A stretch of DNA of 64,000 nucleotides from Mesaphorura yosii. Its lineage: Eukaryota > Arthropoda > Collembola > Poduromorpha > Tullbergiidae. Shown in pieces: positions 29,501 to 58,000 of the stretch. Location: NCBI GenBank assembly GCA_009869945.1, contig WIXG01000031.1, positions 304,602 through 368,601 of the forward strand, read 5' to 3'. The position numbers were made by a program, and so were the translations under genes. Below the pieces are notes generated by a model. The model did not search any database. It was given only the letters and a program-made list of their open reading frames with translations, and had not been told where the DNA came from. Each line of letters opens with the position of its first letter. Position 1 is the stretch's first letter.

Positions 29501-32500
29501 GACAAGAATGCAAAATGTGCTTTGAGAAATGAACCCACCACAACGACGATCAATGCGTTGCCTCTACGAGAGACCAGAATGAGAATTCATTGACGCCAGT
29601 TTGAATTATGCATAACATTAATCTGTTTTTGGTTGAAAAGTTAACTGTGCATTTCTCATTTCGCCGTGCTGTTGAATGAAATAAGAAAATCGATTATTTC
29701 AGACGCCGAGTCGGAGTCGGAGCGCGTTGGTGGAAAAGAATGGGCCAGAAAGAGTAACGTCTCTCAAGAGACAAATTGAAGCTAACTGTAGACTCACTTA
29801 TTTTTACATAATATATTTTCTTTCGCCGTACTTTTGCCGTTCGCGAGCCGCTACCGTAAGATTTTGTAGCACAACATTCCAGATTCAACTGGAGCAAGCA
29901 AACGCAATATCACTTCCCCAATAAGAAGCGCACACACAAAGGACGTGCGATGGTGCAGTGATACTTTATAACTGGAAAGCAACATTTTTCTCACTTTGTT
30001 TCTGTAACCTACGCCCGTTTGATGTTGCACTGCATCCATAAATCCAATTCAGACCAGGATTTCATGAAACGCTCAGTACAACGAACTCACAACAATGTAT
30101 TTGGTATTCGAGAACAATTTACCCAAGAAAAAGTGGATGCATTAGAAATGCAATATAATGTGTAATTATTCAATTAGATCATCAAGTTCTTGAAGAAATA
30201 CGAAACTGCACATCACGCGATTGGCGAACTTCGACTTCAATATGCGCAATCAATTATGTGATTTGGATTGAAAAACTCCAAGTGCTGAGCAAAATATTTG
30301 TACTTTTCCTGAATTCGCTATCCGCCTGTGTCGATATCTGTATTTACTATTTGCGGCAGTAAAAGTAAAAGTGTACACAGAAATCAGGGCAAGTCGTTGG
30401 CAAGAATTCCCGTGTTACGATTGCAAACTTTTACTCATAAATCTGCACCTCGGATTCACTACTTTTATTTACTTTTAGCTTTCGCTTTCAAGTTTACCAA
30501 TCCTACGCTCTTATTTCCAAGAAAATACTCGCGCCTAGCAGTAGAGTGGATCCACTTCAAAGCTACTGCTTTTACAAGAAATCTCTCTTCAGACTCCTGA
30601 ACTTTAGAGAAGGAACTCCGAATCATGCGTATTTTAGTACGCACTCAGAGATTGTATCTCGCCTTGGATTAGAATTCATGACAAATCGCACTGCAGCGAC
30701 AATACCAATAAAAATTTGTCTAAACCCAAACACGGAATGCAGTACATGGAAAATGAAGCGACAAATATGCGTGGCAATAAAAAAGATGTACGCATTTTTA
30801 CATCGGATTCTAATCTCATGCATAAAGAACAGGATTGTCTATTTATGGCTGGTTTTGTACATTGCAGTTTCATTGTTTTGATAAAAAAAAAACACGCGCA
30901 CAGGGTCTGTACCCGAGCGTCTGATGCAAACCGGCCCGACAAAAAGACCGAAAGCGGGAGCGGGCACGCTTCTTATAAAGGAATTTATTTTTGCAGTTGC
31001 AGTGCTAAACAGGGATTAAGCTGTTTCAATGTTTCTTTGTCTTGTTGTCTCAAAAATTTAGAAAAATACTTTGGTACTTGTTGGCGCATAAGACATTAGC
31101 TTAAAGTATGAATCCTGTTTTATTATTTTAGAGCGCAACTCGTTCGAAAAGGAAATAAATATGACAGGACATCTGCTGCGATTCCATGGCCAGGGCCATG
31201 GTGCACTCGAATTCGAACAGGAAACAACGGAACACGATCCAGAATAATGCATGCTAACTCGGTCGCTGAATTATTAGAGCGCGCTGGCAAGACAGAAGGC
31301 TGCAAAGGCTTAGCAAACGCATGTTTTCGGCTTCCCATGAAAGCACAAGCTTCCAGCAAGATTTAGGAAGCTAAAGTTTCAGAGTTGTCAGCCGGTGCTC
31401 TGCCTTTCTTCCTGGCGCAGTCAGAAAATATGATTTAAGAAGGTGAGTTAAGAGAATTGTGACAGAAATTAAAATGAATTACGTCCTTTACGTGATCTTG
31501 ATTCGCCTTTCTATTTCATTTCCATACTCTGCATCAGCATTGAGAAATTCCACGCCTGGCGTGTTAAGTCAAGATCGCACTTACCCGAGAAATATTATTG
31601 ATTTCATCTTGACGAAATTGTTGGTGATGTTTCTGTTGCTGTCGTAATTGATCCTGGAGTTCAGCAGTTCTCATGATGAGATTAGCACGCTGCAAATTAT
31701 ATTTCTGTTCCTCGCGTGCTTGGCCTCCGCCACCAAATCCCAGCGTGTTTGTCACATTACCAAGAATGCCTCGTCTGAGGTCCTTTTGTTGTTGTTGCTG
31801 CTGCTGCTGACGATGTCGTTGTCGTTGATGACTTGGTGTCAGAGACTGCTGCTGTTGAGTAGAGCAGCTTGAATTATTAATGGCCCATAAAAGATTCGGA
31901 TTAGACTGAGAGAACTTGCTGTGATGATTAAATAGTTCGGAATCAAGAGGCTCTTGATAAATCTGATGCAGGAGGAGACCGCCTGCGCCAGCCGGAGTCT
32001 TTGACGGCAGTGCTTTAGATTTAGGCTGAGATTGAGATGGCGGTGGAACTGGTGACACAATTTCGTACACTGGCTCACAATCGTCTCCATCAACTTCAGA
32101 CAGGCGGAAGGTATCCCTGTCTCCTCGTCGCGCTCTTAGTCCACCAGCACCGCCACCACCATTATGAAATTCAAATGCGTCCCTGTCCAGCACTATCGCA
32201 TCGCATTCCTCATAATTATTAGTGTTATTGTTATTGTTTGGAATAAATTGAGAACCATTTCGAGAACCGTTTGGAAAGTGAACATGGCTTTGTTGCTGTT
32301 GTGGGTACGAAGCATAGTAGGAAGAACCCGACGAGGATGATGTACTCGTGCTGTTATTACCACTGCTTATTCCACTGCTGCCACCACTGCCACTGTGAAC
32401 ATGATTAGCCGCTTCCTGATCCTTTTTCTTCTTGTTAAATATCGAACCAAACGTTTGTTGTTGAGAGTTCAGCATCTTCGGAGCAGTTGCGCTTGAACTT

Positions 32501-32718
32501 GCACTCGAACCCTGCTGTCGCAAATATCGTATCGCTTGGAGTAGAGCAATTCGCTCGTGAATGTCGTAGATTCCGATTATTTGCAGATCCGCCTCGCCGA
32601 TTCCCTTGCACGTTTCCAGATCCTTGTACCCATTCTCGAGGAAATGATCGAAATGATATGATAAGTCCAGATTGTTTAACCACTCAAACAGTTCCTTCTG
32701 CTTCAGCAGTTGAGGCAT
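1583..32718 (-). CDS. SAM-domain scaffold-like protein, SAMD5/SASH1-type (3' end beyond window)
   Basis: Eight exons on the minus strand join in frame: 32718-31585, 22013-20892, 20324-20221, 17422-17145, 15303-15050, 14742-14662, 14512-14438 and 2596-1583, giving 4062 bases (1354 codons) with no stop. Intron phases in order are 0, 0, 2, 1, 0, 0, 0 and each matches its neighbour. Residues about 8-70 form a SAM domain (motifs ELFEWLNNLDL, FLENGYKDLETCK, IGEADLQIIGI) resembling the NGYDDLEVCK type I remember from SAMD5 and SASH1. The rest is mostly Ser/Asn/Gln/Gly-rich and probably disordered, with a proline-rich stretch (SPVPPPSQSQP), a poly-Gln run, a likely coiled coil (RANLIMRTAELQDQLRQQQ) and tyrosine motifs (PVYEIV, EIYDYAPP). 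This composition fits an adaptor or scaffold in the cytoplasm or cell cortex; that role is inferred. The Drosophila SASH-like gene SKIP is a candidate relative, but I cannot confirm it. No SH3 domain is visible; it could lie past the left edge. Confidence 0.75.
2597..14437. other. 11.8 kb SAM gene intron, no supported gene
   Basis: Both strands carry only short open frames of AT-rich, non-domain character. The one stretch worth a look is the minus frame at 13848-14036, described under findings. No repeats longer than simple motifs were recognised. Confidence 0.5.
14438..14512 (-). CDS. SAM gene exon 7 (25 codons, charged helix)
   Basis: This is a short phase 0-0 exon with acceptor CTGTATACAG and donor CTG then GTAAGTG. 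It encodes LKYEDFQRRKERIAQQEQ plus seven residues: a highly charged helix that continues the ERIIETINR of the previous exon and probably forms a coiled coil. Confidence 0.72.
14662..14742 (-). CDS. SAM gene exon 6 (27 codons)
   Basis: This is a short phase 0-0 exon with acceptor GCTGTAG and donor AGG then GTAAGG. It encodes TGKEQSCTSLSSLSLPSN followed by ERIIETINR. Because it is frame-neutral it could be skipped without breaking the protein. Confidence 0.7.
14743..15049. other. SAM gene intron 5
   Basis: This 307-base intron separates exons 5 and 6 and shows nothing beyond its splice signals. Confidence 0.6.
15050..15303 (-). CDS. SAM gene exon 5
   Basis: This is a 254-base exon, phase 1 to phase 0. 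The acceptor is GCGTTGCAG and the donor is CACAG then GTGAGA. It encodes GQDEDDSCKPSPSNNGC, then a basic amphipathic patch (LTKLSRRLGLAKLFRTLRL), then a polar tail ending SRKQISQ. The basic patch could bind a membrane or a protein partner (inference). Confidence 0.75.
15304..17144. other. SAM gene intron 4, with a perfect hairpin
   Basis: No coding exon is seen. It contains the 11-bp inverted repeat at 15938-15964, listed separately. Confidence 0.55.
15938..15964. repeat. perfect 11-bp inverted repeat, 5-base loop
   Basis: The left arm CGAGCGTGGTG (15938-15948) and right arm CACCACGCTCG (15954-15964) are exact reverse complements around GCATG. The GC-rich stem stands out in AT-rich intron sequence. 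Function is unknown. Confidence 0.7.
17145..17422 (-). CDS. SAM gene exon 4: basic, Ser/Gly-rich
   Basis: This is a 278-base exon, phase 2 to phase 1. The acceptor is CAG before GTCACTTC and the donor is ACAG then GTAGATC. It encodes SLQNSTLSPFKSKGKSK, a Gly/Ser linker, SASHRNSPKRKFATIKN and a Ser-rich tail ending CSIESAT. The SP and SxR/K sites suggest a phosphorylated linker. Confidence 0.75.
17423..20220. other. SAM gene intron 3, no gene seen
   Basis: Only short open frames of non-coding character are present. A GACGAGA-type repeat patch lies near 18990-19025. Confidence 0.5.
20221..20324 (-). CDS. SAM gene exon 3: EIYDYAPP tyrosine motif
   Basis: This is a 104-base exon, phase 0 to phase 2, with donor GTATGT. 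It encodes PSSCLLDKDEIYDYAPP followed by a Ser-rich end. A longer open frame on the same strand covers it in another register, but only this register joins both neighbours. The acceptor is uncertain: AATGATAG has a poor pyrimidine tract, and CTCGATAAG eight codons downstream would also keep frame. The tyrosine motif could be a phosphorylation or SH2-docking site (inference). Confidence 0.65.
20325..20891. other. SAM gene intron 2, nothing recognised
   Basis: This 567-base intron lies between exons 2 and 3. I see no coding or repeat feature in it. Confidence 0.55.
20892..22013 (-). CDS. SAM gene exon 2: large disordered exon
   Basis: The acceptor is TTGTTCTCTTGTAG and the donor is TCG then GTAAGTC. 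The exon is 374 codons, phase 0 to phase 0. It starts TCDEALTSTMTTG, so the first ATG of the open frame is internal and not a start. The sequence is rich in Asn, Ser, His and Gln, with one more ordered patch (FYNHLQEQQLKEMWLGERR) and an end reading TRTKQVYTPGIYS. Confidence 0.8.
22014..31584. other. 9.6 kb SAM gene intron, no supported gene
   Basis: Open frames on both strands are short and lack domains or matching splice signals. It holds the repeat patch at 26582-26948 and a 7-bp-arm palindrome at 31184-31201. Confidence 0.5.
26582..26948. repeat. composite GC-rich repeat patch with inverted and direct repeats
   Basis: CCTCCGTCCCAGTCCC (26608-26623) recurs as its exact reverse complement at 26816-26831. 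The word CCTAATACCCGTA occurs at about 26582 and again at about 26936 in the same direction, bracketing the patch. Between 26816 and 26925 there are many imperfect GGGACTN- and GACGGAGG-type units. It may be a small non-autonomous element or an eroded satellite; no coding capacity is seen. Confidence 0.5.
31585..32718 (-). CDS. SAM gene exon 1: start codon, SAM domain, poly-Gln
   Basis: This exon holds 378 codons from the ATG at 32718 to a strong donor (CGG then GTAAGTG), phase 0. A TTG lies three codons upstream in frame, but the ATG (MPQLLKQKE) is the natural start just before the SAM domain. The order is SAM domain, a basic patch (NKKKK), Ser/Gly runs, Asn run, a Gly-rich linker, DDCEPVYEIV, a proline-rich SH3-ligand-like stretch, a run of eight Gln, then a Gln-rich predicted helix. 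Confidence 0.85.
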
Positions 32719-35700
32719 GATTGGCAAGTGCAGTGCTGCGGTTTCGAATTCTTTTAAATATCTACCATTATCTTTTTTCCGTTCGAGAGAAGGGGTGGAT
32801 TTTCTTAGAACTCGAGACTCACGTTTGCGTTTGCGTTTACGAGTTGAATCACATCACAATATTTACATTAGATAGTGAAGACAGCGATGTGTAGACACTG
32901 ATTTGATTTGTTTACGCTTGCAACACAACACTTGTCAAAGTAAGGATTCGGTTCTGATTCCAAGTAAGAATGGATAATGATTCATGCGGTTTGCGTGTAA
33001 TTGCAAAACTCACTGATCCACTAAATCAATGCCCGAACTTAAATCCCGTATTGTAAAAACAATTCAATCATGTTTTCGTGTTTCGTGGAAAATCAATGCC
33101 AGACTACAACAAAGCAACTCGAAACAACCACAAAAATGCGATGAGAAAGGCGAGCGCGAGAGATTGTGCATCAGTTTCAATTATGAGATGACGATAATTA
33201 TTTATGCGCTCAAATGTAAACAGTGCCTTGCATCATTCCCATTATTACCGTCATGTGCAGTGCGCAATTTAAAATGAGATATATCACAGCAAGGGAGACT
33301 GCTCGATCGAGATGAGATGACCATCTATTATTTATTCACCATTTTCATGCTGCACGATTTGGTATCCTGAAGACTTACAAATTACGACGGGACCGCTGCG
33401 CGTTTCGTTGTGTGAGTGAGTGCGAGAGAGATTTCATCACGTTTTCATACAAGATTCGCTTTTACAAAGCATAACATTCGAACATTACTGAGCGCATAAT
33501 GTTTACACTTTAAGCTGAGAACGTGCACAAATGCATTGCACTGCGCATCGCATATGGGCATTTAAAATCACATTATTTCCGTAATAATTATAATTATGGC
33601 TCATTTTTCACTGCTGGCTCAAGAATTGTAAATGTTGCACACACTCAAGCAGTATAAGTTGTAATTTCGAGGAGATACACCACCAACTATTAATTTACAT
33701 TAATTTAAACTCAGGGGTTGAAGATGAGACGAAGACGCTGAGACCGATTCTGACGCTGGGTTGAGGGTTGTTGCCAGCAATAGGCCAAACATACGCGCTT
33801 GAACTGGCACTGACTGACTTGGCTTGACGCTTGACTTTTGGCTGCTTGACACTAATAACGCAATAATGAACTACGGCTCAGTGTGTTCTTGTTCTCGTCT
33901 GAGAAGCACGTGCAAGTTGTGGCCTCGAACTGGGATGTGACTTCCTTGACAGCTTCCCATGAACTGAACGCGCACGGAACACGTACACCGAATGCAGAAC
34001 GCAACGAAAGTACGATGAACCATCTGCTTCACCGTTTTCATGATTTTTCTCCAAAAGAACATAGGCACGAACTGAAGGAGCCTCGAACTTCAACTCTTGC
34101 ATTGCTCTACACACGACTCGTGGCTGCAACAATGTAATGTGCGTGCGCTGTACGAGAATCTGCGTCCTGTGTGTTTAAGCCAACCGAGACTTGGAGCAGA
34201 CAGAGAAGAAGTCTTTTCAGTGGAGTAGCAAAAGCAAAATGTGTGAGACCAATCCATCTTCCAGCGGCAGTCACAGAGGCAGTTTCTCGTCGGCCGTTCA
34301 CTGTTACGTAACAAATAAAGTTACTACTGAACAAAACGACGATGATAGCGAGAATATACGAGGACCGACTTGCTTGCTCTCCGCGTGGTGCGTGGTCCCG
34401 TGAAATCTATTACGAATACAAGAGAGAGTCCAAGTCAGAATAACTTCAAGGGTTATTGGATTCAATTCACACAATCACAATCACGAAGTGCAGCCCTTGC
34501 TTCCACTCTGCGAGTAACGCGGCCCACGATGGATGGATGTTGGTGTACATAAATATTATATTATATTGAGCGTGAGGTGAAAGGGCAATGGCTAGCTATC
34601 ATCATTAAAATTGATCATTGGCATTCACGAATGTGTGGAGAAAGCTTCAAGTGGTGGCAGGGCAGCAGGGCAAGAGGACGAGGCCGGAATCCGGATATTT
34701 CTATCAACTTCCGCTTGCGTTTATTTTTCACCAGGCCATTTCCCAGACTCATTGAAAGCAGTAGTTGAAGTACCATACTGTACCATACCCGCACCAACTT
34801 TTCACCGTAGCCCATTACCGTTACCGGACAGAATGCAGAGATTCGCAAATTTGTTCGTACTTCGTGTCCACTTCCATGCTTTCATCTCCTTTCGCTTGAC
34901 CTCGTTTGCAAAAAGAAAAATTAGACCGTGTGATGAGCTCTCTGCGTACGAGCGTGCGCCGTGATTCGCTGTCATTTGTAATTTGTGAAATAAATTCAAG
35001 AATTACGTTCCAGCAAGAATAACGAATGACTACTGGAAAAATGAAGTATTTCATTCCAAATATCTCTGTCGTACGCGGAATATAAATGTTGCAACTTTAT
35101 AGAGCAGCACAAAGTTTACGTTACTCTAAAGTTTCAGTCACAGTCGCAGTCGTATTTTTGCTAAGTTTGTCTCATTGCCGAAATTGGATTCTTTAAAATG
35201 AATGACAATAAAAATGAGTGCTGTCTGGAGGCAGATGAGAAGAGGATACATACGATTTGGTACGGAACATTCATTCGAGTTGAATTTCTTCCTTGTACTT
35301 TTTTCCGTTGTCAGAATTAATATAATTTACATTTTCATTCTCCAACACTTTTCGCGCTTTCTCCAGCCACTTCAGCTCTGAGCTGCACTGCGCTCGCTCA
35401 GGACTGAGACTCATCGTGCTTTCACGCGCTTGCAAGGGCAAACCCGGTTGAGAGAAATTAGAATCCCCTTTTTCTCCATTCATTGTCTTTCTACCGACGC
35501 GTTGTTCCTTTGTAATGCGAGAGTCAACCAAATTAAATGAAAACAAATGAGTTTTTTTGCAGAACCTTTTCCAGCATCAGAATTTACATTATTTTGTCTT
35601 TAGAAAATTCATGGCCCTCAGCTGTGGACATGGCCGACTTGGGCTTGCCTACCCTGCAAACGTATTCGTACCGTTTACCTTTTTGGTACTTTTATTCGCA

Positions 35701-42701: not shown

Positions 42702-45287
42702 GTGAGTAAAAATTACGAGTCGACGCTGCTTTTATGATAGAAAGGTAGCGTTCATGTAGTAAATAGTCAGCGGTCAATATTTCTGGTCATTCACAGACTT
42801 GCGAGTTGAAACAGTGTTTTAAATTGCGGCGATGTAGATTAAAGAAGTTTTGCTAAATGAAAGTGATTGATGTTGCGTGATTACGTCTCAAGTGCGTCTT
42901 TTATGACCAATTAATAAGAGATTTACGATCATCAACTTTGCGTGAACAAATTGCTCATCACTTGACCGGCCAATCTGCGATGAGAGAACCTTTAAGAATC
43001 CATGAACAACTTTCGTTTATAAAACATAAATGCCGATCACTTTGCTAAATTCAATATTGCTAAAGTCTTAATTTGCTGTACTTTTTAATGGCGAGAAGAT
43101 GTGGGCAGGTTCAGCCTGAGATGATTAGTTTAGTGCAGTTTAAGCTGCCAAGTAATTGCTTTGAAGTATTAATGGCAATGTTAATGTAGTGTGAAGTCTC
43201 AAGTGGAGTTTAACCGCGGCTGTGCAATTATTCCCCAAATGAAATAAAAAAAAAACAAAGTAAAATTTGTCTCACGGTCTCATGCATGCACTTACAATTT
43301 ACATTTGAGAAATTGGCTTAGAAGTTGAAGTGCTCGTCCGGTTCGTCGGCAATGTCAATCACAGAGTTGAGGTTGAGATTACAAGTTGCGCTTTGCTGAA
43401 ACGTGTACTGCACTTCAACTTTCCTTTATCAACCTCGTGCAGATGCCTAAGCGTGTAGTTCAGCTGCATGCAATACAATTCGTGACTTGTCTGACTGAGT
43501 CAACGGAATAAATATTACGAAACTCTTTTGACCTTTGTTCAGGTTCTACCGATTTTATGCGTCCTCCTTGGATTCGCCGCTGCTGAACCTCCACCTCCGA
43601 GTTACATGTTCAGCAATTATGATGACACGTCGACATTCGGGTAAGAAATGACTCTGACTGTTTGTGTCATGGCCCATATGTCATTTTCATGTTGGACCTC
43701 ACCTATTGATTCGCTGACTTTAGTGCGACAGATGATGACGGAGCCGGAATAAGCGAACTTGGTCAAGAGTCGTCAGGAATCAGATTTTCTCAGAACCCAT
43801 TCGGCGGAGGCGGCGAAGGTGGATTTGGTGGTGAGAATGAAGTACAAGGATACCAAACCCAAGGGGATGATTACGGATTCGATGGCGGACCAAGCAATAC
43901 ATTTGAGGGCGGTGGAAGTGGTGTAGGCTCATACAGCCCTCCATCCGGCGACCATGATTCGTATGGACCTCCGACATTTGGTAAGACAGTAGGCAACCCC
44001 AATGGTTGGTTTAACTGCATATTTGTATTAAAATGTTTCGAAATCGATTGTAGGTGGGCCGAAGAAGAGGCCTTATGGATTTTCCATGTTTCTACCAAAA
44101 ATGCCAAAAATTCGTATCAATTTGGGAAGGCCAAAAATGCCACAAGCAAGTCCATCACATTTTACGTATCCCACTTACGCCCAGTCTGGACCACAACAAT
44201 CCAGTCCTTTTGAGGCATACTCGGGGCCTGGCTCGGAGATGAGCTCATTCGACACGTCTCCAAAGGGACCTCATGGATTAAGTTACGAGGAAGCCCCGAG
44301 TACAAGTGCGTACGGCGCACCTTCAAAAGGACCACACAGTTCGTATGAAATTCCAATAACGTATGAGAAACCTTCAAAGCCATACGGTGGACCTTCGTCG
44401 TCCAGCCAGTACGGAGGACGTCCTAAAGACATTCCCGCGTACAAGCCAGGAAACCCATACGGATCTGCGCCTTTAGGGTTGAAGCCCGGCGGATACAAAA
44501 ACACGCCATCCAGTCAGTACAGCCCCTTCTCTGGCCCAGGTGGTTTCAAGAAACCATATTCTTCGTCATACAAGCAACAAGCCCCAGATTTCGAGCGTCC
44601 TTACGAAAATCCAAAGGGCGGGCACAGTTCGCCCGCTCTATCCAATGCAGGATACGTGCGTGGACCCAGCTACACGAAATATGGACCTCCAATCAAAAGC
44701 CACACGCACACCAGCAAACCGATGCCAATGAGCACGTACGGAAGTGATTTCAGCCAGGGTTCGAGCTACGACTCGCAGCTGAAGTCGTACGGTCCACCGG
44801 CAAATGATTATCTGGATCCAGTGTCCAACTACAACGCTCCTAGCCACGGACCTTACCAAGGTGGTCGTGGTTCCAACAGTAAATTTAAATTATTATTCGG
44901 AAGCAGGCGTATTTAATACTTAAGTTTTGCTAACACATGATGCATTGATTATTCAGAGTACAACGACTTCGATGACCAAGAGAACCGGTACAAACGCCGT
45001 CCACAATCCTACGGTCGCCCACCAATGAACTCACCTCACTCATACTCGCCTAAACCACCGAGAGGAAGGGGTTATCCTTCTCCGTCTCCGTCTTCAGGAG
45101 GATACAAACCGAGTAGCCAAAGTAATAAGTTCAAGTTTTAATTACAGTGTGCAATGGCTTAATTTTTGCAACGGTAATTTCAGGTCACAGTAGCTACGAT
45201 AATTACTCAAACTTTGGAAGCAGCCCAGAACCAGAGTACTCGCCACACTCTTCCCCATATGCAGGTAGCAGCATGTTCCGCTACTAG
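42693..45287 (+). CDS. secreted Gly/Pro/Ser/Tyr-rich structural-type protein
   Basis: Six exons join in frame: 42693-42701, 43543-43640, 43724-43980, 44054-44878, 44957-45121 and 45184-45287 (1458 bases, 485 aa). Intron phases are 0, 2, 1, 1, 1. Residues 1-17 (MKLVLPILCVLLGFAAA) are a clear signal peptide with predicted cleavage before EPPPPSYMF. The mature chain has no cysteine. It begins acidic (NYDDTSTFGATDDDGAG), passes through a Gly-rich segment (FGGGGEGGFGGE), a basic patch (PKKRPYGFSMFLPKMPK), then a long low-complexity region of SYGPP, SSQYGG and KPYGG-like units, and ends SSMFRY. The first exon carries three codons and splits the signal peptide, a structure typical of arthropod cuticle-type genes. 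Extracellular matrix, cuticle, adhesive or silk-like roles fit; I recognise no named family and no chitin-binding R&R consensus. Confidence 0.85.
42702..43542. other. first intron of the Tyr/Pro-rich secreted gene
   Basis: This 841-base intron splits the signal peptide after three codons. Nothing else is recognised. Confidence 0.6.
43543..43640 (+). CDS. secreted Tyr/Pro-rich gene exon 2: signal peptide core
   Basis: The acceptor is TTTGTTCAG and the donor is TTCGG then GTAAGA, phase 0 to phase 2. It encodes VLPILCVLLGFAAA, then EPPPPSYMFSNYDD. Confidence 0.85.
43724..43980 (+). CDS. secreted Tyr/Pro-rich gene exon 3: acidic and Gly-rich
   Basis: The acceptor is GACTTTAG and the donor is TTTG then GTAAGA, phase 2 to phase 1. 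It encodes ATDDDGAGISELGQESS, a Gly-rich middle and SPPSGDHDSYGPPTF. Confidence 0.85.
44054..44878 (+). CDS. secreted Tyr/Pro-rich gene exon 4: main low-complexity region
   Basis: The acceptor is GATTGTAG and the donor is AACA then GTAAAT, phase 1 to phase 1, 825 bases. The ATG at 44086 is internal, since the frame runs back to the acceptor (GGPKKRPYGFS). If the following intron is retained the protein stops at 44916 after a KFKLLFGSRRI tail. Confidence 0.85.
44957..45121 (+). CDS. secreted Tyr/Pro-rich gene exon 5
   Basis: The acceptor is TTATTCAG and the donor is CAAA then GTAATA, phase 1 to phase 1. It encodes YNDFDDQENRYKRRPQS and a Pro/Ser-rich end with KPPRGRGYPSPSPSS. Retention of the following intron would end the protein with NKFKF and a stop at 45139-45141. 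Confidence 0.8.
45184..45287 (+). CDS. secreted Tyr/Pro-rich gene exon 6 and stop
   Basis: The acceptor is AATTTCAG; entry is in phase 1. It encodes HSSYDNYSNFGSSPEPEY and ends AGSSMFRY then TAG. Confidence 0.8.
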
Positions 45288-45498
45288 TGAGAAAATGTGT
45301 ATAATTCAATAGTATTTGCATGCTTTATGTAGAAGAAGATTTATCAGGATATTGAACGTAGCCAAACACACGTAGATCGCTCGTAGGACCCGTTTTGGTC
45401 AACCATTTGCACGTTCCTCGCTTCGCATGATTTCCTAGTTGTTTATGCTAGCTAGCACTGATTAGCAGAAAATTCCGAATTGTTTTTGTTAGCATAGT

Positions 45499-45800: not shown

Positions 45801-47758
45801 CTGAAAGGAACGAAGCAAATTCATTGTAATCGTACTTAAATTGTAACAAAGTAGTTTGATCTCACCTCCGCCTGTACCTGCTCCGTACGATTGAGAAGGC
45901 ACACTGGCTCCTCCGCCACCACCATAACCTAAACACAAGCCACACATTTTGCTCATTTACTTATTTTGGATGGCAGAGCGAGAGCATTCATACAGACGAA
46001 AATACAACAGGCACATTTTGCTTTACATACGTGCGAGAATTCATTTCATGCTTTAGGCAAGTGCTTACATGCTACTTCAACCAAAGTGGGCAGGGACGCT
46101 GCCATAATTTCCTGAATTGTAAAAACCCAGTCTCCCTAACGCTGCTTGTGCCAGCAATAAGTTCTCATCAGTAGGATCGGGAATGGCTGGCGTGCCATTT
46201 CCAAACCCTCCCAGACCTGGAAGTGCGAGGCCAATTTCTCCAATTCCGTTGTGACTAGATTCGGATGGAATTGGCAACTGTTCTGGGAGTGGGATTGGAA
46301 TTCTGTTGGGTTTCGAGTTAAGTGGTTTTCCCGCGCCAGTTGAGTACGTGGGGTATTCGTGTTCACGGTTACGATCACGCTCGCGGTCTCGATCACGATC
46401 TCGAACTGGACCCAACGGCCTGTGATTATGATGCTGGGGTTCTGAAGAAGGTGTCGACGTCTGACTCATTTTGGATATGTGATCATCGTAGTCTTCAAAA
46501 ATCTGATAGTCTTCGTTGTCGATGACATGCAAGCCAACAGTGTCTAAAAGCGTGGCTATTGTATAAATTATTTTGATTAGCATGCAACACGCACCAGAAT
46601 TTTCAGGCTAAAGCAAAGCAAGTGTACCTAACGCAGACAATCCACCTTCATCTTTGACATTTCCATGCTTGTCATCGTTGCTGGTGCCATTTCTGATTTT
46701 GTTAAGACTAACTGCCTTTCTACTGTTGTTAGCGGGTGGTGAGTGGAATCTAGGCGGATGCGCGTATTCATCGTCGTCATCGTAGTCATGCATATGCATC
46801 GGTTCACCACGGTATTTATGGCGTCTGAGGCTGAATGAGGAGTCGGGAGAGGATGCAGAACCAGAATTTTCTGCATATTCATGCAATCGAGAGTTCATGC
46901 AAAATTTAACACATGTTGCATGCGAAAAGTGACCCACCTCCTCCTCCACCACCGCCTCCACTACTACCTCCTCCCCCATAGCCACCCCCTCCTCCGCCGC
47001 CATCACTTCCACCGCCACCGTAGCCTCCTGAAAAATTTAACTTCGGTCATAATAAAGTTCTGAACACGAATTTCACAGCTTCTATCAAGAATCACCCAAT
47101 GCCCTTTTTTATGAACTCACCTCCACCGCCACCACCCGAAGGAGCTCCGTATCCGCCGCCTGAGTCTCCACCGCCTCCACCTCCTCCGCCACTGTAGCCT
47201 CCACCTATTACCGTTAACCACATTTTACTGTTAGCCATACCTTCCTCCGTCATGATGTATAAGCCATCTAATCATTTCTATCACTATTCTCTCGATAAAA
47301 CTAATATTTGCAATGGATTGCAAGTATGCAAGTCGTAATTAGATTGCTTACCTCCTCCTCCGCCTGATGAATACCCTCCACCACCACCTCCTCCAGAGTA
47401 TCCCCCACCACCGCCGCCTCCGCCAGAATATCCACCACCTCCGACACTGTTGCCTCCACCTCCGTAACTTCCTCCTGTGCACAACGAAACCATTTCTTCG
47501 TGTGTTCGTGAAGTGTTCGTGAAGGCAGACATCACAAAACTGCACATACCTCCTCCACCGCCGCCATTGTTGCAGCCAACTCCACGTTTTACTCTCCTAA
47601 TGGCCGCTGCGTCAGCCGTTCCAGTGACGACTAGCAACGTCAACGCCAGTCCAGCAACCTAAAATATAATGACGAAGTTTGAACTCAAGACCAACAGAAC
47701 CTTTGTGTCACTGTCTACACTTATGACTTGTACTTACGATTTTGAATGACGTCCCCAT
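45778..47758 (-). CDS. secreted Gly-rich modular protein with RVKR site
   Basis: Exons run 47758-47738, 47658-47550, 47474-47352, 47204-47121, 47027-46938, 46870-46628, then either 46543-46077 (stop; 378 aa) or 45928-45866 plus 45800-45778 (stop; 251 aa). The intron after exon 1 is phase 0 and all later ones are phase 1, so exons 3-6 can be skipped or included in any mix. Residues 1-24 form a signal peptide (KIVAGLALTLLVVTG core). IRRVKR at 27-32 fits furin-type cleavage, leaving a mature start GVGCNNGGG with the only cysteine. Exons 3-5 are Gly/Tyr/Ser repeats such as GGGGYSGG; exons 6-7 are polar and charged. Signal peptide splitting by the first intron resembles arthropod cuticle genes. 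A matrix or cuticle role is likely but unproven; no named family is recognised. Confidence 0.8.
45866..45928 (-). CDS. Gly-rich gene exon 8: alternative, downstream of a stop exon
   Basis: This 63-base phase 1-1 exon has acceptor TGTGTTTAG and donor GGAG then GTGAGA. It encodes YGGGGGASVPSQSYGAGTGG. It lies after the stop of exon 7, so it can be used only when exon 7 is skipped or cut short. Confidence 0.65.
46077..46543 (-). CDS. Gly-rich gene exon 7: alternative terminal exon
   Basis: The acceptor is ACGCTTTTAG; entry is in phase 1. It encodes DTVGLHVIDNEDYQIFED, an Arg/Asp/Glu repeat (RDRDRDRERDRNRE), a Pro-rich PIPLPEQLPIP and a hydrophobic end LAQAALGRLGF, stopping after PAHFG with TGA. 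A GT at the stop (TTTG then GTTGAA) matches the phase-1 pattern of the other exons but is a poor donor. Confidence 0.7.
46628..46870 (-). CDS. Gly-rich gene exon 6: polar, His/Asp-rich
   Basis: This phase 1-1 exon has acceptor ATATGCAG and a weaker donor TTAG then GTACAC. It encodes NSGSASSPDSSFSLRRH, MHMHDYDDDDEYAHPPRF and a basic/polar tail. The His/Asp cluster could bind metal ions (inference). Confidence 0.72.
   Translation of the reverse strand, partial: KILVLHPLPTPHSASDAINTVVNRCICMTTMTTMNTRIRLDSTHHPLTTVERQLVLTKSEMAPATMTSMEMSKMKVDCLR
46938..47027 (-). CDS. Gly-rich gene exon 5
   Basis: This phase 1-1 exon has acceptor TTTTTCAG and donor GGAG then GTGGGT. It encodes GYGGGGSDGG, a Gly run and GGSSGGG. 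Confidence 0.8.
47121..47204 (-). CDS. Gly-rich gene exon 4
   Basis: This phase 1-1 exon has acceptor GGTAATAG and donor GGAG then GTGAGT. It encodes a Gly run, DSGGGYGAPSGGG and related residues. Confidence 0.8.
47352..47474 (-). CDS. Gly-rich gene exon 3
   Basis: This phase 1-1 exon has acceptor GTGCACAG and donor GGAG then GTAAGC. It encodes GSYGGGGNSVGG followed by three GGYSGGGG-type units. Confidence 0.8.
47550..47658 (-). CDS. Gly-rich gene exon 2: signal core, RVKR, cysteine
   Basis: The acceptor is ATATTTTAG and the donor is GGAG then GTATGT, phase 0 to phase 1. It encodes the signal peptide core, then AAIRRVKRGVGCNNGG. Confidence 0.82.
47738..47758 (-). CDS. Gly-rich gene exon 1 (MGTSFKI)
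   Basis: This start exon has seven codons and a GTAAGTA donor, phase 0. It joins the hydrophobic VAGLALTLLVV of exon 2. Confidence 0.8.
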
Positions 47759-48901
47759 GAGATAAATTTTGTCTCAAGTATATGCAAAATTTAATAATAC
47801 TCCAGCCTGGTTGTGGCGGAGCTGAATCCACTCCTGAGTTGTCTTTGCACTTTGTTGACCAAAATTCGTAGGCTTTAAGAAGCCATAAAGTGAGTAACGA
47901 ATTTCAGCACACTTCTCAACAGATTACTGCTGATATCAAGACTGCTGCTAAATTGGATTGCGTAAACTATTTATATCTTTCCGACCCCACTCAATTCGAG
48001 CATCTTTTACTAGCACATGAATTAGTGGAGTACGGGCAGGTATCCTTAATAACATTAAGAAGCATACCTCGGCAAGGAATTGAAACTCACTGGAAACAAT
48101 AGGCGCTTTCAAATAAAAGGAATGATATTTTATTGATGTATAATAGGGCGAGTTAATCAAATGATAATGCTCACGTGCCCTGGCGGTTTCACTTTCATTT
48201 GCCGTGCACGACATGGAGAAACTTTGATCATTGGTTAGTGATTCCTGAGAACAGCAACAGCAGCGGCTTCGAGAGAATTTGACAAGAATCCCTGTGCCAC
48301 GACTCGGAACAAAAGAGATGATGAAACTTTCTCAGTTACTCGTGCGTATTGTTTTCTTGAAAGTTCATTTGTTTCCATTTTACGCACGCAAATGGCAACT
48401 GTATTGTTGACGGTTGAATCTAATACAAAGCGTGAATGAGATCTTGAACCTTGAGAATTACGCTGAACTCTCCTTTTGCCCATCCATGACCCAAAAGTGA
48501 CGGATTAATGGGTCGTAAGCACATGATCATGATTTCTACCTTTCTAATCAGCGTAGTCCATTCTTGTATAGTTCGCAGTTTGGGTCGAATTGTATAATCA
48601 ATGAAGCCATTGAATTAGTTAATTTAAAGAACAGTTTGATTTAATCACGGTAAAATCTACGGTTAAATGTCAACAATGAAAAATAGGATTATATAAGTCA
48701 AGTGATTAAAGTCGCTTCGTCAAAGACGTAGTAAACAAAAAGTATGCGTTCCATAATTAACATAATGTGTACACGTTCCTATCCTATTGACTAAAGTACA
48801 AACACGTCATTTACGATGTTCATACAGGATTCAATAATGTCATTACAATAAATAGATTGTCATAAACTATCGAACTATTTCACTAGAACGTTATCCATTT
48901 C
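47759..48901. other. gap between Gly-rich gene start and receptor stop
   Basis: It holds the receptor 3' UTR and the upstream region of the Gly-rich gene, both read on the minus strand. No gene is seen. Confidence 0.55.
48640..48645 (-). terminator. weak polyadenylation signal for the receptor (ATTAAA)
   Basis: ATTAAA on the minus strand lies about 260 bases after the receptor stop. No AATAAA on that strand occurs before it. Confidence 0.3.
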
Positions 48902-49006
48902 TTACTGGCCTTCAACAAAAAATATCTGATTTACAGAATTCTCTGGACTACTCGGCGGCGTAGGCACTTCTTCCATCGGCACGTATGCTTCCATGTCCAT
49001 GTATTC
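48902..49006 (-). CDS. FGFR: FGFR exon 14: cytoplasmic tail and stop
   Basis: The acceptor is ATTTTCAG. It encodes [23 protein letters not shown] and ends FFVEGQ then TAA. EYMDM matches the position of the vertebrate EYLDL PLC-gamma docking site. The tail is short. Confidence 0.93.
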   Translation of the reverse strand, partial: EYMDMEAYVPMEEVPTPPSSPENSVNQIFFVEGQ

Positions 49007-52000
49007 CTGAAAATTTAGAAATCGACATAAGTAACGAACTGAAAGAAAGAATTCAAGTGACAATTGTAGCGTAATCTCAACTTACAGTCCCGGACGCTAT
49101 ATGTAAAATTCGCCCGATATCTTCAACCAACTCTTTGAATTCTGGACGCGTTTCAGGCACATCAGACCAACACTCTCGCATCACTAAGTACCTATAATTG
49201 AAACAAAACAATGATAATTTGATAGTACCATGAACATGACATTTAGCCACATGAAGAACAACGTTTAAGCAGAACTTACAGTTCTGTGGGACAATTTGAT
49301 GGCTGCTCCATCCGCCTACCGGACTTTAAGAACTCAAGTAACTTGTTGATGTCAGGCATGGATGGGTACGGCGTGCCTCCCAATGTGACGATCTCCCAAA
49401 GCAAAATACCATATGACCACACATCAGACTGTGTTGTGTAAATTCGGTGGAACAGCGTTTCAGGAGCCATCCATTTAACCGGTACTCGACCGTCGCTCTT
49501 TTTACGATAATAATCTCTCACGAAGGTGCTTCGTGTCATGCCAAAATCGGCAATTTTGGCCTGAAAATCATTGGATAAATAGTATAATTCAGGAAGATAA
49601 ACTCAAAAACGAAAACACATTCTTCGCTTACAATTCTATTACTAGACACTAGTACGTTTCTTGCGGCCAAGTCTCGATGGACGTACTGTTAAGGGAGAAA
49701 AACGCATTAATAATTGGGTAACAAATTAGAAGATTGTCAATCACATTCTATAATACCTTTCTCTGAACTAAATACTCCATTCCGCGTGCCACTTGATACG
49801 CAAATGACATTAGATCCCGGAACGTGAGGTTGTTCTCATAATAATTTTGCGAGTTTTGGTATATTTGTAAAAAAGAGTTTTGTGGAGCTCTTGATCGCTC
49901 ATACACATATTGCTGGCGATTGTTTCTCAGATAGTCTCTGAGGTTTCCAAATTGGGCGTATTCCATAATGACCAGCAGCTCGCCACTTTGTGTGCAGCAA
50001 CCAAGCAGGTTGATGATATTCACATGTTGGCCGAGCTCTTTCATAGTCTCCATTTCAGAAATCAGGTCAATCATTTCAGCGTCGGTATGAGTTTCTGTTA
50101 AATTTCATTGAAACATTAAGTCAAATTTGTTTTCATTAAAATTCGTTGCACTTACTCTTCAGTGATTTAACGGCAACCGTTGTGGCGACTCCTTTCTCGA
50201 CAATATCCATCGCCACACCTTCCATAACTTCACCGAATGCTCCTTCGCCGAGTTTCTTGCCAAGAGTGAGTTTCTCGCGTGGAAATTCCCAATACACATC
50301 AATTGGAAGCTCGTATTCTTGACCGCTCTTATTAGACTCCGCCCGTTCGACGTTTTTGATATTGACTTCCGGGATAAGCTATTGAAGAAATGTCGCGATG
50401 AGTTATGCCATCTTCGCTAGGCTACATATCCACAAAACGACGTAGTATTTGAACTTACGACAGAGCCATCTTCATTTTCATTTGCTGGCCTCCTTTCAAT
50501 GTGGACTTGTTTAGTCCAACCAATGGATTTCTTCATTTCCAGTGCCCTGAGCCTGTTAGAAGGACCGAACTGCAAAATGCGTTCCAGTACGAATCAGGTT
50601 AGTGAGCGTCTGCCTACCTTCGTTTGTTATCCACTCTAATTTTGCACAATGCGAGCAGGGCCACAATAGCAAAAACTGACATGAACACTAGACCAATTAT
50701 ATACGCCCTAATTCCAGAGTCGTGGAAGTTTCTTGTAGGTTCTGGTGGCAATTCTGCAAGGGATATATATATATCGGCGACGGGACAAACTAAACTAGCG
50801 AAGAAAAATAAATGAATTTGGCGACGGGCTTTGTAGCGACAATATTACGAAATAAATGAAAACGACTACAGGTATTTTAAATGAAAAGAACGACGGGTCA
50901 GGCGAGCAACAAAGAATAGGAAATTATCGTCCGTCCGGAAGTAGCCAAGGCTCTCATCCGACAATAATATAACTTGTATATTCTGTCGATTTTCGTAGCC
51001 GAATTCTTATACATGGTGACATATTTCATTTTTTCAGTCGCCAAATGGTTGTCGACGTCTTCATTTCTTGAGTCGCTCAAAATAAATGTCGCTAAATTCA
51101 TCAATCTTACCCGTCGTCAAAGTAATTTGTGTGGTCGACGAATTAATTCTATCCCATTCTGCAAGAAGACGACGTATAAAATACATACGAGTTAATAACC
51201 AGCTTCGTTGGCATTTTCATTTACCTTCCAGGACTTGGATGTAGGCACTGCTGAATGCCTTTCCAATACTGTTCCCAACTACGCATGTGTACCACCCTTC
51301 ATCTTCCAGTGTCACATTTTCCAGGACTAAATTATTGGGGTCATGAAGTAAATCCCGGTTGGTTGTGCGAGACTGTAGAAAATAGAACCTTCAAGTATTT
51401 CCGAATTTTCGCCAGATAACATGCAGCGACGGCAACGCCCAAGCTGTAAGATTTAGGATCCTGGACTGCTTTCTGGGACGCATTCCATATCAAAATTGTG
51501 GCCGGTTAACAGATTTTAACCTAAGTTCTTTAATTATTCGACCAGGAAACATCTTTACGTATGGGGACGTTAGTAATAGTTCGCTATCATGCCGTTAATG
51601 GGCCGCGTGTTAAAATGCTCAGCACTAGCACTAACTAAAAGCTAGTTCTTCGTACACTCTACTCGTTTTAGCTTCGTTCTAGCCAATTTTTGTTAACAGC
51701 ATTATCAAGCCTTAGTTTTCAGTCCATCAGCTTTAGAAGAAGTTATCACACGAGCTTCAAGACCCATTCTCAATACCTTAACAATGCTAGTATTGTACGG
51801 ATCGGCATCCGAATGTTTGACCCATTGAAGAGCGAATTCAGGGTGGCTGAGTATTTTGACATTGAGTACGACAGTGTCGCCTATGACCACTGTTACATTG
51901 GTCGGAGCTTCTGTAAATATGGGTCTTGCATTTGCTGTTTCTATAAACAACCGGGAGTAAAGAGATTAATTTTCGCCCACGAGAAAAATGAAACGAGTCA

Positions 52001-55000
52001 AGAATTAGTTTCAGTTGGTGTTAGAAAGATCAGGCCAATCAATTCAAATCAGAAAGCTCAATCAAACAATGCTTGCAAATGCAGTTTCGCCTCATAACTC
52101 CTCAATTTACAATTTTGCGGCGCAATTTTGCATTCCATCAATCATCTAACTAAATTCGGCTTATTTGTGTCCTGATGCTGGTTTTTAGAAGCTGCTATCA
52201 TGACACGCACCTTAATTACGATAGACGTATTCAAATCCAGAGTATGTTCCGTATGATGGTAAAATCGGACATGAGTGGTGTGGGCGTCTGAAGTGTGGGA
52301 ACAATTCAGGAAGACTGTATTTCCAACACGAGTGGTCATGTTTCTCAATCGTTCCAATATTATCGGTCTTGCACCATATCTCTCTATAAATGAAGGGCGG
52401 GATCTTGTTTAGAATTTACTCGCAGTTGTCAAAATTACTTTATCGTTATTTTACCGATGAAATAACATTTGGGAAGGAGAAGGCCCATCACCAGAATACT
52501 ATTCCTACTCCGTCACCATAAATTCGAGAAACTTCAAGAAATCTGGTTGTAATATTGAATAAAAAGTGAACTAAACCACTCCACCAAATCTAAATAACCT
52601 TTGATTCACCGTCCACCAATTAAGCAAAGCAAAGGAAGCCCATCGAACTTCCACCCTATGGTGCAAATTCCACAAAACAGCATGCGGTGACTTGATTTTA
52701 AAGATCTCATGCAATTGCAAAAGAAATTCCGATCATTCCTGAATTTTGTCATTATCATTCTTACGCAGCAACGAGAAAAAGGTTTAGCACTAATTAAGTA
52801 TTCATGCAGGGCTGAAGTATCAATAATCAAGTCACGAATGCTTTTCATACATTGGCGAGATGCAGGTGCAGTAAGAGGCAAAGCAATAGAACGAGACAGG
52901 AAAAACGCGAAAAGTTATGAAAAGTTGTCAAGTAGCATTTTACAAAATGACTGGGCAAACAGCGTGAAGTTTCTGCTACGGCTAATGTAATCAGCAATTC
53001 TACAGGCCGAAAAAGCGAAAGACGAAAGCGTGAAAGTCAATGTCAAAAGAAATGTATTCACGATTAATTGCAGGATAACTAATCAGCACTTGTAAGAACA
53101 TAAGAACATGCCGCATGCAAGAGAATGTTAGGAAAAGAATTCCGAAGGTTTTGTTCATGTTTTCAAATGTAAATACTCTACCAGGAATCCTACCAGGAAT
53201 TTCGAGGTGGGTGTCATATTTGATGTCAGCCTGAACACCATTGCTCACAACGCACGTGTACTTCCCACCGTCTGATGGCACAGAGTCTTGGAAATTGAGA
53301 GAATTCCGTGTGATTCTGTGCTGATACCCGGATTTTATGAAAGGAGCATCGTTTTTAAGCCAACTAATTCGAGGCACTGGGTTGCCTGCACGAGTTAAAT
53401 TAAGAATGCAATTATTGCCAAGTTATTACAAATCGGACTGATGAGTCGGAAAATTACTTTAATTACCTCTGGCATTGCAGTACAGAGTGACTGTTGTTCC
53501 AGCTGATCTGACAAGATAATGTGTCATGGCTTTACGACTTTCTTGCTTCAGCACCAGGCAAAGATACGTGTCGTTTTTACTCTTCAACTCGGCTTCAACC
53601 TTTGTGCAAGAAACCAGTTCATCGTTGGCAGCCTGCTGTAGATCTTCTTCGGACTCGTAGTAATACTCATCGGACGAGTAGGAAGAATTTTCCATTTCAA
53701 CGTCACCGGTCGACCTGTCTTTCGAAGTGGTGCTTGTGCTTGGCTGCACGGTTGTCGTGGTGGAATCTGATTTTCTGAATGATCGCTGCAGATTTTCTTT
53801 CTCAGACTCGTTCCGAACCACATACACGGTTACATTCCTTGACAGCAACAATGAACCCGTGTCCATATCACGAACTTTACATCCATAAATTCCTGCGTCT
53901 TGTACTTTGACTTTCTTGAGCAATAAACTATAAAAAGTGGAAACAACGTGCATTGAATATTTACCATTCACGCACATCAGAAAGCTTTAAGGTGTATAAA
54001 CATTGTGGCATTACTAGAAGTTGCTGAAAATGGCTCTTGGTGCGGTATCAGGACTCAACTCCTTTCCATTCTTAGTCCACATGGTCCGAGAGTAGTCATT
54101 CATTTCATTGAGATCGCCGCAGTGGAGTTTCAAATTGTCTCTTTTAACCACAACGACTGGGTCGTCCGCATGATCCTTCAAAACTGGAAGATGACAAGAA
54201 AGTACACAAATTATACATTAAAGATGCGACAGACTACGCAACAACTAACTGCTTCATTACTTTATTTCCAGTAGTAAACAACATAAAGCGAGCGGCCGCA
54301 TTCGGCTGCGTCTTTAATCATTTCATGTGAACATGAAACATGCGTTTATACATTGAACTGTTGACCCTTTCGCTTTACTGTTCCTGCTGGAGATACAAAG
54401 TTTATATTTTGTACGACGTACGAAGGCCCGTCTCAATTCACCCAGTTGAAAGGTTACTCGCGTTAAAAAGCAATAACGCTAATCTTTGCCAGAACTCCTT
54501 ACGGGAGGCTTTCTTTGCATGTGCATCAGGCGCAGGGTTCAAGCAATAATTCCCTCCAAAAGTCCAGGCCAAGTACATAAATATGGCAAGGATCAGGCGA
54601 AACAAATGAAAAACACATTCTCCCATTTCCATCAGACGTAAAAGAAGTCTTGAACTGTCAACTGTCATCGGATAAAGTCAAGGAACCGAAGCTGATGCGA
54701 AGACTTGGACGGAGAATTTGAGATACAAAAACAGTTGTTGCTCGCTGTTCATTTTTCACAACACCATAATGCACATATTTCAAATTGAGGTTGCGTTGGC
54801 TACCGGCCTGGCTTCACTTGAGACTGGCTACATTTAAGAAAGAGCACAAGATTTGGGACCGAGGCCAGAGCAGACCCAAACTGCACTGCTTAATACACTG
54901 CGCTCCTGTGCTGTTGTAAACTAAGTCCAATAAAAATAATACATAAAAATAGAACAGAAAAGGTGGCCATAGGTTTTGAGAAAATCTTTAAGGTTCTAAA

Positions 55001-58000
55001 CAGTTCATAAATGTGAGTGTATTTTGAAGACGTAAACTTTTGATGCTCATTCACAAGAATGAAGACTGGCATTATGCTGCTAAGAACCGGCCGTCATGCT
55101 GCATTGCAAAGAATTCGACTTCACTGGTAACTACTGCTACTGAAAATGTTTATGACTTCTGATGACGTCCAAGCCAAGAATTATCAGCTGCGTGTGAGCA
55201 GCAGCGTAGAAGCGCAAAGAAAAGATTTGCGCACAGAGAATCAAGTCGCGAAAAATCAAACGAATCCGAAAATTGGTTTACAACCATTAAAGACACAATG
55301 ACAGACATTCAGTCAGCGTTCAACTCAACTCATTTAAGAAAGTTGCGAAATTCGGTTTCCAGCATCGCGTCGCGGGGATCTGTGAGCAGATATGCAAAAC
55401 AAGATCCGTGAATTCCTAGTGCCTATGAAATTCACCACAGGCAGTCAGTCAAACTCGACGTAAATCCCTGAATATCGACTACAATAAGTCTTCATTTATC
55501 ATTCCATATTTTCTTTGTTTGCCGTTTGACATTTGACATAATACACTACATTATCGAGCTTATTTTCCTTAAAACTTCATAATGCAGATGGTGGTTATTA
55601 GCCCTGGTATATAAATTACACACGGATCGGGTCTCAGGCCAGGAATTAAGGAAAGAAAACCAATACAAGTATGAGAAGAAAGGAAAACAACATGAGTTCT
55701 TTTCTTCTGACTTGAAGCTGTGACCCAAGCCAATAAAAGAAAGAAGTTCTTTCAATATTCAATTTATAGGTCTGGCTCTTTGTAAGAAAATTTTGTTTGG
55801 GTCATGGGTCTTCGTTTATAGACTTTTGGCGAGCGAGCTGCGCTTTGAGAAACTGAATAATAAAACTACATATTAATAATACACTCTCTTCACTTGCTGC
55901 TCATTTAACAGCTGTATTTTTTGTATGCCGTACTTGTAAAGTCAAGACTTGCCGTTGTAAAAGATCTTTTCTGGTTCTGCAGCAAGTTAACAAGTAATTC
56001 AATCCGGCGGACTGTCCGGCTTTTGTTTGTAAGCTGACCATTGGGTTCATTTTGCTTGGCACCAAGACCAAGAAACCAAGCCTACGGGACATTGACGCTG
56101 GCAGGGCGGGTAACCTGCTGCTCTCAGCCTTTCCGTCGAGGACTCTGGAAACAGAGTTTCAGTATCAGAACCAGTGAAGGAGCATCAAACTTGTTTTGTT
56201 GTTATTGCTTGCCAATGTTAACCTTCCAACAACAGGGCCGAAGAATGTTTGGCAATGGCAATGTGCAATACGCCCCCAATGTGTAAGTTTTCCTCTTGAA
56301 ATCCAAGTCCTCAAGATGTGCTTGAATTTCTTAAACCTTCACACACGACTCGATTTCACGACAAGAAAAGGGTCTCCCACTGCCTGCTGCTTGAGTGCCA
56401 TTTCTCTCGAAACTCACAACATAAAAGAAACTAATGAAGTTAAGTACCTCTCAACGGGCGCTGGCAATACATAAAAATCAAATTTCAAGTGAGCATCATG
56501 TTTCTAATCTTGGGCACGAATAATGAAACTCTATAACAATATTAACTCGGGTCTTTCCTTTGAGCAAATCCTTTCCATATGGATTAGCTTAGCGAAGAAT
56601 TAAGGCCGTAAAAAGTTTCAGTCAAGAGCCAAGCCAGGCTTGACTTGACTTTCTTTCAGGTTGATCGTTGAAGGGTCTCTTATTCAGAAATAAATCACGT
56701 CACCAGGTTTAATTTCAAAGTAAAACAGAGCGTTGATACCGGACAATACTCAAAGCACGAAAATAAACGTAATTGAGGTATTAGCTTAAGTCCTTCTTGG
56801 AACAAAGCAATTCTAGCGAGATAAGAAAGACTTGGAATCAAAGAGTCTGGGTGAATTTGCCTATTCAAGCGTCGTGTTTTTTTCACCTCTCAAAAATACT
56901 TCGCTTATCTGACTGATTCAGACACTATTATGAGCCTTTCGAGATAAAGCAAAACAAAAGTGTTCTGATTTGTAATTGCAGAACTGAAGTAACTGACTTC
57001 CAACTAAAAAATGACCCCAGCCTATTTACTACAAGCTTGCAGTCATGTTTGTCCGAATAATCGAACATGCCATTGGCGCTGAGACACGCAGCTTGCCCAC
57101 TGAAGTTCAATAATTTGTGAAATAGGACACGAAAATTTCCGAAACTTCCCGAAAACCTCATCGTCAACGTTAAAGCACGTGTGCCAACAACCGGGCAGTG
57201 CCAATCATCTAGAACTAAAGTTCTCTAAGTCCAGTGCTGGGCAGATGAGCATCCGGTCAAGCCGGACTGATTTATTGTGACGGGATGATATCCAAGACTC
57301 TTTCGCTGCCTCTGCTTAACTATCAGCAGTGGACACGCACTATGGGTTGCTCCTCGGCGCCTGCGTCTGCTCGCGTGGTTACATAATTGAAAAAGAACTT
57401 GCGCATCGTGCACAAATTATTCGTCAGTTCACGACTCCTTTCAACTGAATCCTCAACCTTTCGACCTGATCTTTGACTTGTGCGCAAGAATTTCCAATTT
57501 CAATTACATGTAAATTCGTTTCTGAACACTAATTGAGTTGGAGATACCATCACAACAGGAGCTTTACTGAAGAAATGAGCTGCCCAAGCTCAGGAAAGGA
57601 AGAAAGATCATTTCATCTCCTCAGTATGTGAATGAGTTGTATGTGCTCCAAATGCGTGTTGCTTGTTCAAGCAGTCGCAGGAAGGAATGTTTCGAATTTC
57701 CGTTGAGTCAGAAATGACCAGATTCGGTTACTGCTGTGGCGGAATAATTGCGCTACCGAAAGAGACGGAAACATCTGAGTCAGCGGGCAAGGTGTCAGGT
57801 GTTTGTCTTTCGGGATGTGAGGAAAGAAAAAGACGAAGATGGGTTCATGAACAAACGCCGAGAAAGTGCAACATGCCATCTTCTTAGGCGCGCTTCCAAG
57901 CATGTGTTCATTTACAGTTAAATGAATTTGGTGAATATGACATTAAAAAGTGAAACTGGTGCCACCGGTGAACCGTGAATGCGCATAGCACATGAGCGCA

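Follow-up and report, generated by a model that had tools for sequence, protein, structure and literature searches.

In the 64,000-nucleotide stretch of DNA presented above (contig WIXG01000031.1, positions 304,602 to 368,601; hereafter the window), a gene on the minus strand encodes a fibroblast growth factor receptor (FGFR) in which the first half of the third immunoglobulin-like domain (Ig III) is present as two neighboring exons, here called A and B. It is very probable, judging from the sequence, that exon IIIa of this arthropod FGFR gene was duplicated in tandem in the distant past and that the copies are now mutually exclusive exons, with their splicing being predicted. The anatomy and frame logic of the pair are plain in the DNA, as is the protein-level constraint on both exons, and the gene would probably yield a pair of receptors that differ in their ligand-binding surface.

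The FGFR gene and exons A and B

By its sequence the minus-strand gene clearly belongs to the FGFR family. The spliced model consists of 841 residues in the A form or 838 in the B form, and with either exon the reading frame is uninterrupted from the Ig1 exon through Ig2, Ig3, the transmembrane segment and the kinase to the final stop; the model starts at the Ig1 exon, and signal-peptide exons upstream lie outside the modelled part. A Pfam search with the A form returned a full-length kinase and three Ig stretches, and the Ig1 piece when tested alone exceeded the Pfam Ig_2 cut-off. The acidic stretch between Ig1 and Ig2 and the transmembrane segment were identified by eye in the translation. 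When the kinase was compared with PDB sequences, the best 60 of 2624 matches were all FGFR1-3. It was also found that an intron divides Ig III into a IIIa and a IIIb/c half, the boundaries being judged against FGFR1/2 sequence; vertebrate IIIa presumably ends at the same point as exons A and B. The modelled forms are alike in Ig1 and Ig2, in the second half of Ig III and in the kinase.

Exons A and B lie within one gene, separated by an intron of 270 nucleotides (nt). Each has a length of 2 mod 3, lies between an AG and a GT, and is entered in phase 1 and left in phase 0, and the donor at 53194 contributes the G of a Glu codon common to the A and B joins. Exon A translates as ERYGARPI...GNTVFLNC...NTSIVIK and exon B as ETANARPI...GDTVVLNV...NTSIVK. 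Joining A to B leads to ...KLRPM and a TAA within B, and skipping both leads to ...QPGFTS and a TGA in exon 6. As both lengths are 2 mod 3, a message that carries the two exons together, or lacks them both, goes out of frame and soon reaches a stop, and only messages with A alone or B alone would make a receptor. An earlier reading, made by a model from the letters only (the sequence-only reading), had given the coordinates, phases and stops of A and B and had proposed that one exon at a time yields a receptor; on recheck the coordinates, phases and stops were correct, and the proposal was supported. The layout is that of the insect type, with a pair of exons in the place of IIIa, a single exon for IIIb/c and, by the frame logic, a single IIIa exon in each functional message.

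The same reading had held that the second half of Ig III is a single common exon, and it was upheld in that no second IIIb/c-like segment, and hence no duplicated second half of the vertebrate type, stood out in 47000-58000. Other matches to the IIIb/c exon in this region were the gene's own Ig1 (score 41), its own Ig2 (51) and a plus-strand stretch (40), the last of which did not exceed the shuffled maximum of 41. No third IIIa-like segment stood out in 47000-58000. Stretches resembling A at 57865-57445 on the minus strand (scores 39-45) and 55685-56060 on the plus strand (score 45) were attributed to chance, as 5 of 20 shuffled regions scored 45 or more.

Similarity and selection

The Smith-Waterman score of A against B was 61, with a shuffled maximum of 48. 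Against FGFR2 IIIa, A scored 54 (shuffled maximum 38) and B 66 (52), and against FGFR1 the two scored 49 (37) and 77 (46), respectively; none of 5000 shuffles attained any of these scores. Residue identities were 21/55 between A and B, 21/57 between A and FGFR2 and 19/54 between B and FGFR2. The two exons had been proposed to be duplicates from their ARPI start, their NTV/DTV strand and their NTSIV(I)K end, which the score above all shuffles bears out, and the protein similarity is decisive in showing that the exons are more than chance. By themselves, an open frame and splice sites count as weak evidence, with 9.7% of random 165-nt windows being stop-free. For isoform A the top PDB sequence match was FGFR1. 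For isoform B the top two rows were Roundabout 1, whose scores add up several Ig domains, none of them above 50.9 bits, followed by FGFR1 with a domain score of 80.2 bits. Exon B was aligned with phmmer; a MAFFT alignment, which misplaces the middle of B, was discarded.

Neutral decay was simulated in 3000 runs each way, with drift to 38% identity and an assumed insertion or deletion for every ten substitutions, two in three of these indels shifting the frame. Copies without stops made up 31% of the runs from B to A and 22% of those from A to B; in the same order, copies without stops and frameshifts made up 1/3000 and 2/3000, and copies attaining the observed FGFR2 score 13/3000 and 0/3000; not one of the 3000 copies in either direction was both intact and as FGFR2-like as observed. 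This outcome indicates that, during most of the period since they were duplicated, selection has acted on the protein that A and B encode. The similarity of the two exons at the DNA level is not significant (209 of 2000 shuffles match it), and because it has been lost, and the distance between A and B about equals the distance to FGFR2, the duplication is judged to be old. Protein similarity that is kept while DNA similarity is lost is as would be expected for an old duplication under selection.

By the favoured reading, exon IIIa of an arthropod FGFR was tandem-duplicated long ago and the copies became the exclusive exons A and B. The D2-D3 linker and the opening strands of Ig III, which belong to the ligand-binding face, would set the two receptors apart, and the choice between A and B may alter which FGF is bound. 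Both exons would be used, in different tissues or at different stages, with the wrong products (both exons or neither) presumably removed through their premature stop. The linker reads ERYGARPI in A, ETANARPI in B and ERSPHRPI in FGFR1/2, so that after the linker Glu the Arg is retained in A and is a Thr in B. In vertebrate complexes the linker Arg contacts FGF. The donor before the choice lies in a 12-nt tandem repeat; a possible second donor at 53182 would extend the D2-D3 linker by 4 residues, and with the donor at 53194 the linker aligns gap-free with that of FGFR1/2.

Splice sites and alternative explanations

A number of observations weigh against two working, mutually exclusive exons. 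Splice sites were scored with a small model built from donors and acceptors of this FGFR gene, 12 of each. The donor of A (AAG/GTGCGT) is poor, with 2.5 bits, all 12 training donors being GTA, and the acceptor of B is also poor, with 1.4 bits; both are near the bottom of the leave-one-out ranges (1.7-7.8 and 0.8-10.4, respectively), yet inside them. As many as 17.5% of GT sites score at least as well as the A donor and 18.3% of AG sites at least as well as the B acceptor, while the B donor and the A acceptor stand out more (6.1% and 0.9% of sites score as well). In the Ig III core, exon A has F at the C-strand Trp (VRFYHH) and retains the B-strand Cys (LNCSH), and exon B has V at the B-strand Cys (LNVKI) and retains the Trp (LQWVKH). 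Codon usage is weakly coding-like, being reached by 5.3% (A) and 4.8% (B) of random windows, and exon B also lacks stops in one of the antisense frames. No signal was found of docking/selector RNA pairing for an exclusive choice; the best common pairing sites reached -18.9 and -15.5 kcal/mol, values equalled in 2 of 12 and 7 of 12 shuffles, respectively.

As each exon has one poor splice site and is without one Ig core residue, and as the A isoform scores below the B isoform over the whole chain of FGFR1 8jqi_B (89.8 vs 104.2 bits), only one of the two might now serve as IIIa, with the other surviving as a relic that splicing passes over. Nevertheless, A and B are both open, have the same phase and retain their similarity to vertebrate IIIa, and a neutral copy so diverged would not stay so, as seen in none of the simulated runs; we therefore regard a relic as improbable, though a recent silencing of one exon may have occurred. 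The early stops that follow from including or skipping both exons would also suit a pair that serves mainly as an on/off switch, in which frame-shifted and degraded mRNAs lower the amount of receptor and no ligand is chosen. For such a switch one exon of any sequence would do, and the FGFR-type protein sequence in both exons would go unexplained, which makes it very improbable. A merging of two alleles or gene copies into one tract has next to no chance of being the explanation: it is named owing to the draft state of the assembly (genome G000, 93 Mb in 1127 contigs) and found no support, and A and B, with the identity given above, are far past allelic difference and lie 270 nt apart in one gene. 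Among the matches listed for a query with exon B, the best Ig2-Ig3 match elsewhere had 30% identity.

A strong acceptor with a weak donor in A and a weak acceptor with a better donor in B may leave room for regulation. Two 17-nt elements located 3' of the A and B donors (Table 1) are 82% alike, a score reached by 87 of 2000 shuffles with 100-nt flanks and by 140 of 500 with 250 nt, and the pair could be a relic of the duplication, a shared splicing element or chance, for any of which it is a weak sign. In the introns upstream of A and B no shared element was found, 632 of 2000 shuffles being as good. The longest direct repeat reported in 51300-53300 is 30 nt long with 73% identity and lies over both acceptors, 443 bases apart.

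Table 1. Features of the FGFR gene, with positions counted from the first letter of the window
Feature	Position	Strand	Remarks
FGFR gene as modelled	48902..54183	minus	Ig1, acidic stretch, Ig2, Ig3, transmembrane segment, split tyrosine kinase
Ig2 exon (exon 4)	53194..53385	minus	5' of the choice; donor 53194
12-nt tandem repeat (ATTCCTGGTAGG/ATTCCTGGTAGA)	53170-53205	minus	at the donor before the choice; in-frame donors 53194 and 53182
Predicted alternative exon A (IIIa-1)	52211..52383	minus	173 nt; linker and first half of Ig III
17-nt element 3' of A donor	52184..52200	minus	82% like 51732-51748
Predicted alternative exon B (IIIa-2)	51777..51940	minus	164 nt; linker and first half of Ig III
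Partner 17-nt element 3' of B donor	51732..51748	minus	82% like 52184-52200
Shared exon (exon 6)	51225..51372	minus	second half of Ig III, vertebrate IIIb/IIIc position; single copy

Genomic context

The R&R cuticle domain gave 66 matches in the genome, and Ubx, abd-A, Antp and other Hox-type homeoboxes, named by eye, were found on one contig; together these mark the genome as that of an arthropod. A tardigrade, weighed at first as the source, was rejected on account of the Antp-, Ubx- and abd-A-like homeoboxes, which tardigrades are not known to have. A search for mitochondrial COX1 gave no match. The search for insect odorant receptors gave no match in the genome, a zero that does not show absence as the same search was silent in control genomes, while the related gustatory receptors gave 61 matches. 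Within that limit, the contrast speaks against an insect. Odorant-binding proteins gave 4 weak matches, which do not decide whether or not the genome is from an insect. An FGF ligand search resulted in one match, divergent ligands being able to escape it.

A kinase search of the genome returned at least 133 matches, the FGFR's own exons included. Stretches of 51-62% identity made three loci candidates for a second FGFR, and these were rejected, as by eye they were PVR-like, Ret-like and Cad96Ca-like. None of eight further kinase loci (L001-L008) was FGFR-like by eye, and stretches of 52-63% identity on contigs C158, C194 and C202 are among the matches outside the reading by eye. It is likely, but not proven, that FGFR is single-copy in this genome. 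A viral contig collection scanned with the kinase yielded neither a eukaryote contig nor an arthropod FGFR.

Several of the other kinase loci have features of their own, as seen by eye in the translations. L002, L003 and L004 (contigs C646, C981 and C789) form a small family of receptor-like tyrosine kinases in which a subtilisin-like protease region replaces the usual ectodomain, the kinase and protease parts of L002 being in different frames. L006 (contig C539) has a tyrosine kinase and a Kelch-like repeat region in one open frame, and L005, L007 and L008 (contigs C37, C604 and C387) are one-frame tyrosine kinases with a membrane-proximal region in common. Many kinase matches of the genome are in intron-free frames.

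Adjoining the FGFR gene are glycine-rich and proline/serine/glycine-rich genes at 46600-47660 (minus strand) and 43700-45300 (plus strand), possibly cuticle or silk-like; Pfam gave no match for the one piece searched, 43710-44210. A long open frame with a SAM domain lies at 31567-32853 on the minus strand. Elsewhere in the genome, contig C22 carries six Hox-like homeoboxes between 115 and 395 kb, and a Ubx-like homeobox on the same contig (L033) has the C-terminus KQARAKEVVQSLHGGHDQNGQN, without an alanine run. The Ubx alanine run is known from insects.

Comparison with known systems

The alternative IIIa exon pair is real and well preserved, and the kind of event is known from insects, in which alternative versions of the first half of Ig III have been described before. 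The Ig III region is treated in Burguera et al. 2017 (PMC5703972), who describe this part of FGFR as a hotspot of recurrent alternative splicing, and the legend of their Fig. 7 refers to a mutually exclusive exon IIIa in insect FGFR, termed insect-specific. The sequence-only reading had put forward variation of the first half as an independent route to ligand-choice splicing; in view of that description, a new and independent route is not supported. The arthropods named in that source are the honey bee, the red flour beetle and the fruit fly, the fly FGFR genes being intronless, and from the species list of the legend we read the insects with an exclusive IIIa to be the bee and the beetle; the source also cites Sharma et al. 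2015 for two Tribolium isoforms. The pair described here is like the insect pair in its place, the first half of Ig III, in its predicted mutually exclusive use and in its one IIIb/c exon, the likeness being one of position and exon layout. In the study of the two Tribolium isoforms, exon-specific RNA interference reportedly showed distinct tissue roles.

While the insect pair was described as insect-specific, the present one belongs to an arthropod whose genome gave no match to insect odorant receptors, suggesting that an exclusive IIIa is probably not specific to insects. No description of an exclusive IIIa in a non-insect arthropod was found among the entries listed by searches of the open-access literature. 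The passages on FGFR in PMC4244043 give two FGFRs for the centipede, and those in PMC5111886 give one for Parhyale, in both cases without mention of splicing. If the event termed insect-specific extends outside the insects, as is probable, then either the IIIa duplication is older than the insects or the same exon was duplicated twice, and the genomes of crustaceans, chelicerates and myriapods that already exist could be used to choose between these. An older duplication would make IIIa splicing a basic feature of arthropods that later disappeared where genes became intronless, as in the fruit fly. What is added here is the probable extension beyond insects, together with the core residue of the Ig domain that each exon has lost.

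The loss of one core residue per exon is unusual, and the complementary losses in A and B set the isoforms apart in concrete, testable ways. Exon 6 contains a single cysteine (YTC) and exon B none, so that the Ig III of isoform B would have a lone cysteine. In human FGFR2, according to the passages on Ig III in PMC6369924 and PMC5051481, the domain has a C278-C342 disulfide, and for changes of the C278F class aberrant disulfides and constitutive dimerisation or activation were reported. Like this class, exon B loses the B-strand cysteine of Ig III; however, C278F is a disease mutation with reported constitutive activation, while exon B is a standing exon. A rather improbable reading is that B is a standing broken-disulfide form and that splicing lets the animal switch between a normal, ligand-dependent A and a B that dimerises through its free cysteine or binds FGF differently. 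Were this true, isoform B would be a built-in counterpart of the human C278F-class change, and the pair would also be older than the insects.

Like A and B, IIIb and IIIc of the vertebrate and amphioxus FGFR are exons duplicated in tandem, each supplying one half of Ig III; their use is mutually exclusive, as is predicted for A and B. They vary the second half of the domain, whereas here it is the first half that varies and the second is single. As given in PMC5703972, IIIb/IIIc arose in the lineage to chordates, and every non-chordate studied there has one IIIb/c exon, used constitutively. The FGFR of sea urchins and other ambulacrarians likewise has splicing in the Ig III region, with an alternative exon upstream of IIIb/IIIc; that exon is described as unlike its neighbors (PMC5703972), whereas A and B are duplicates of each other.

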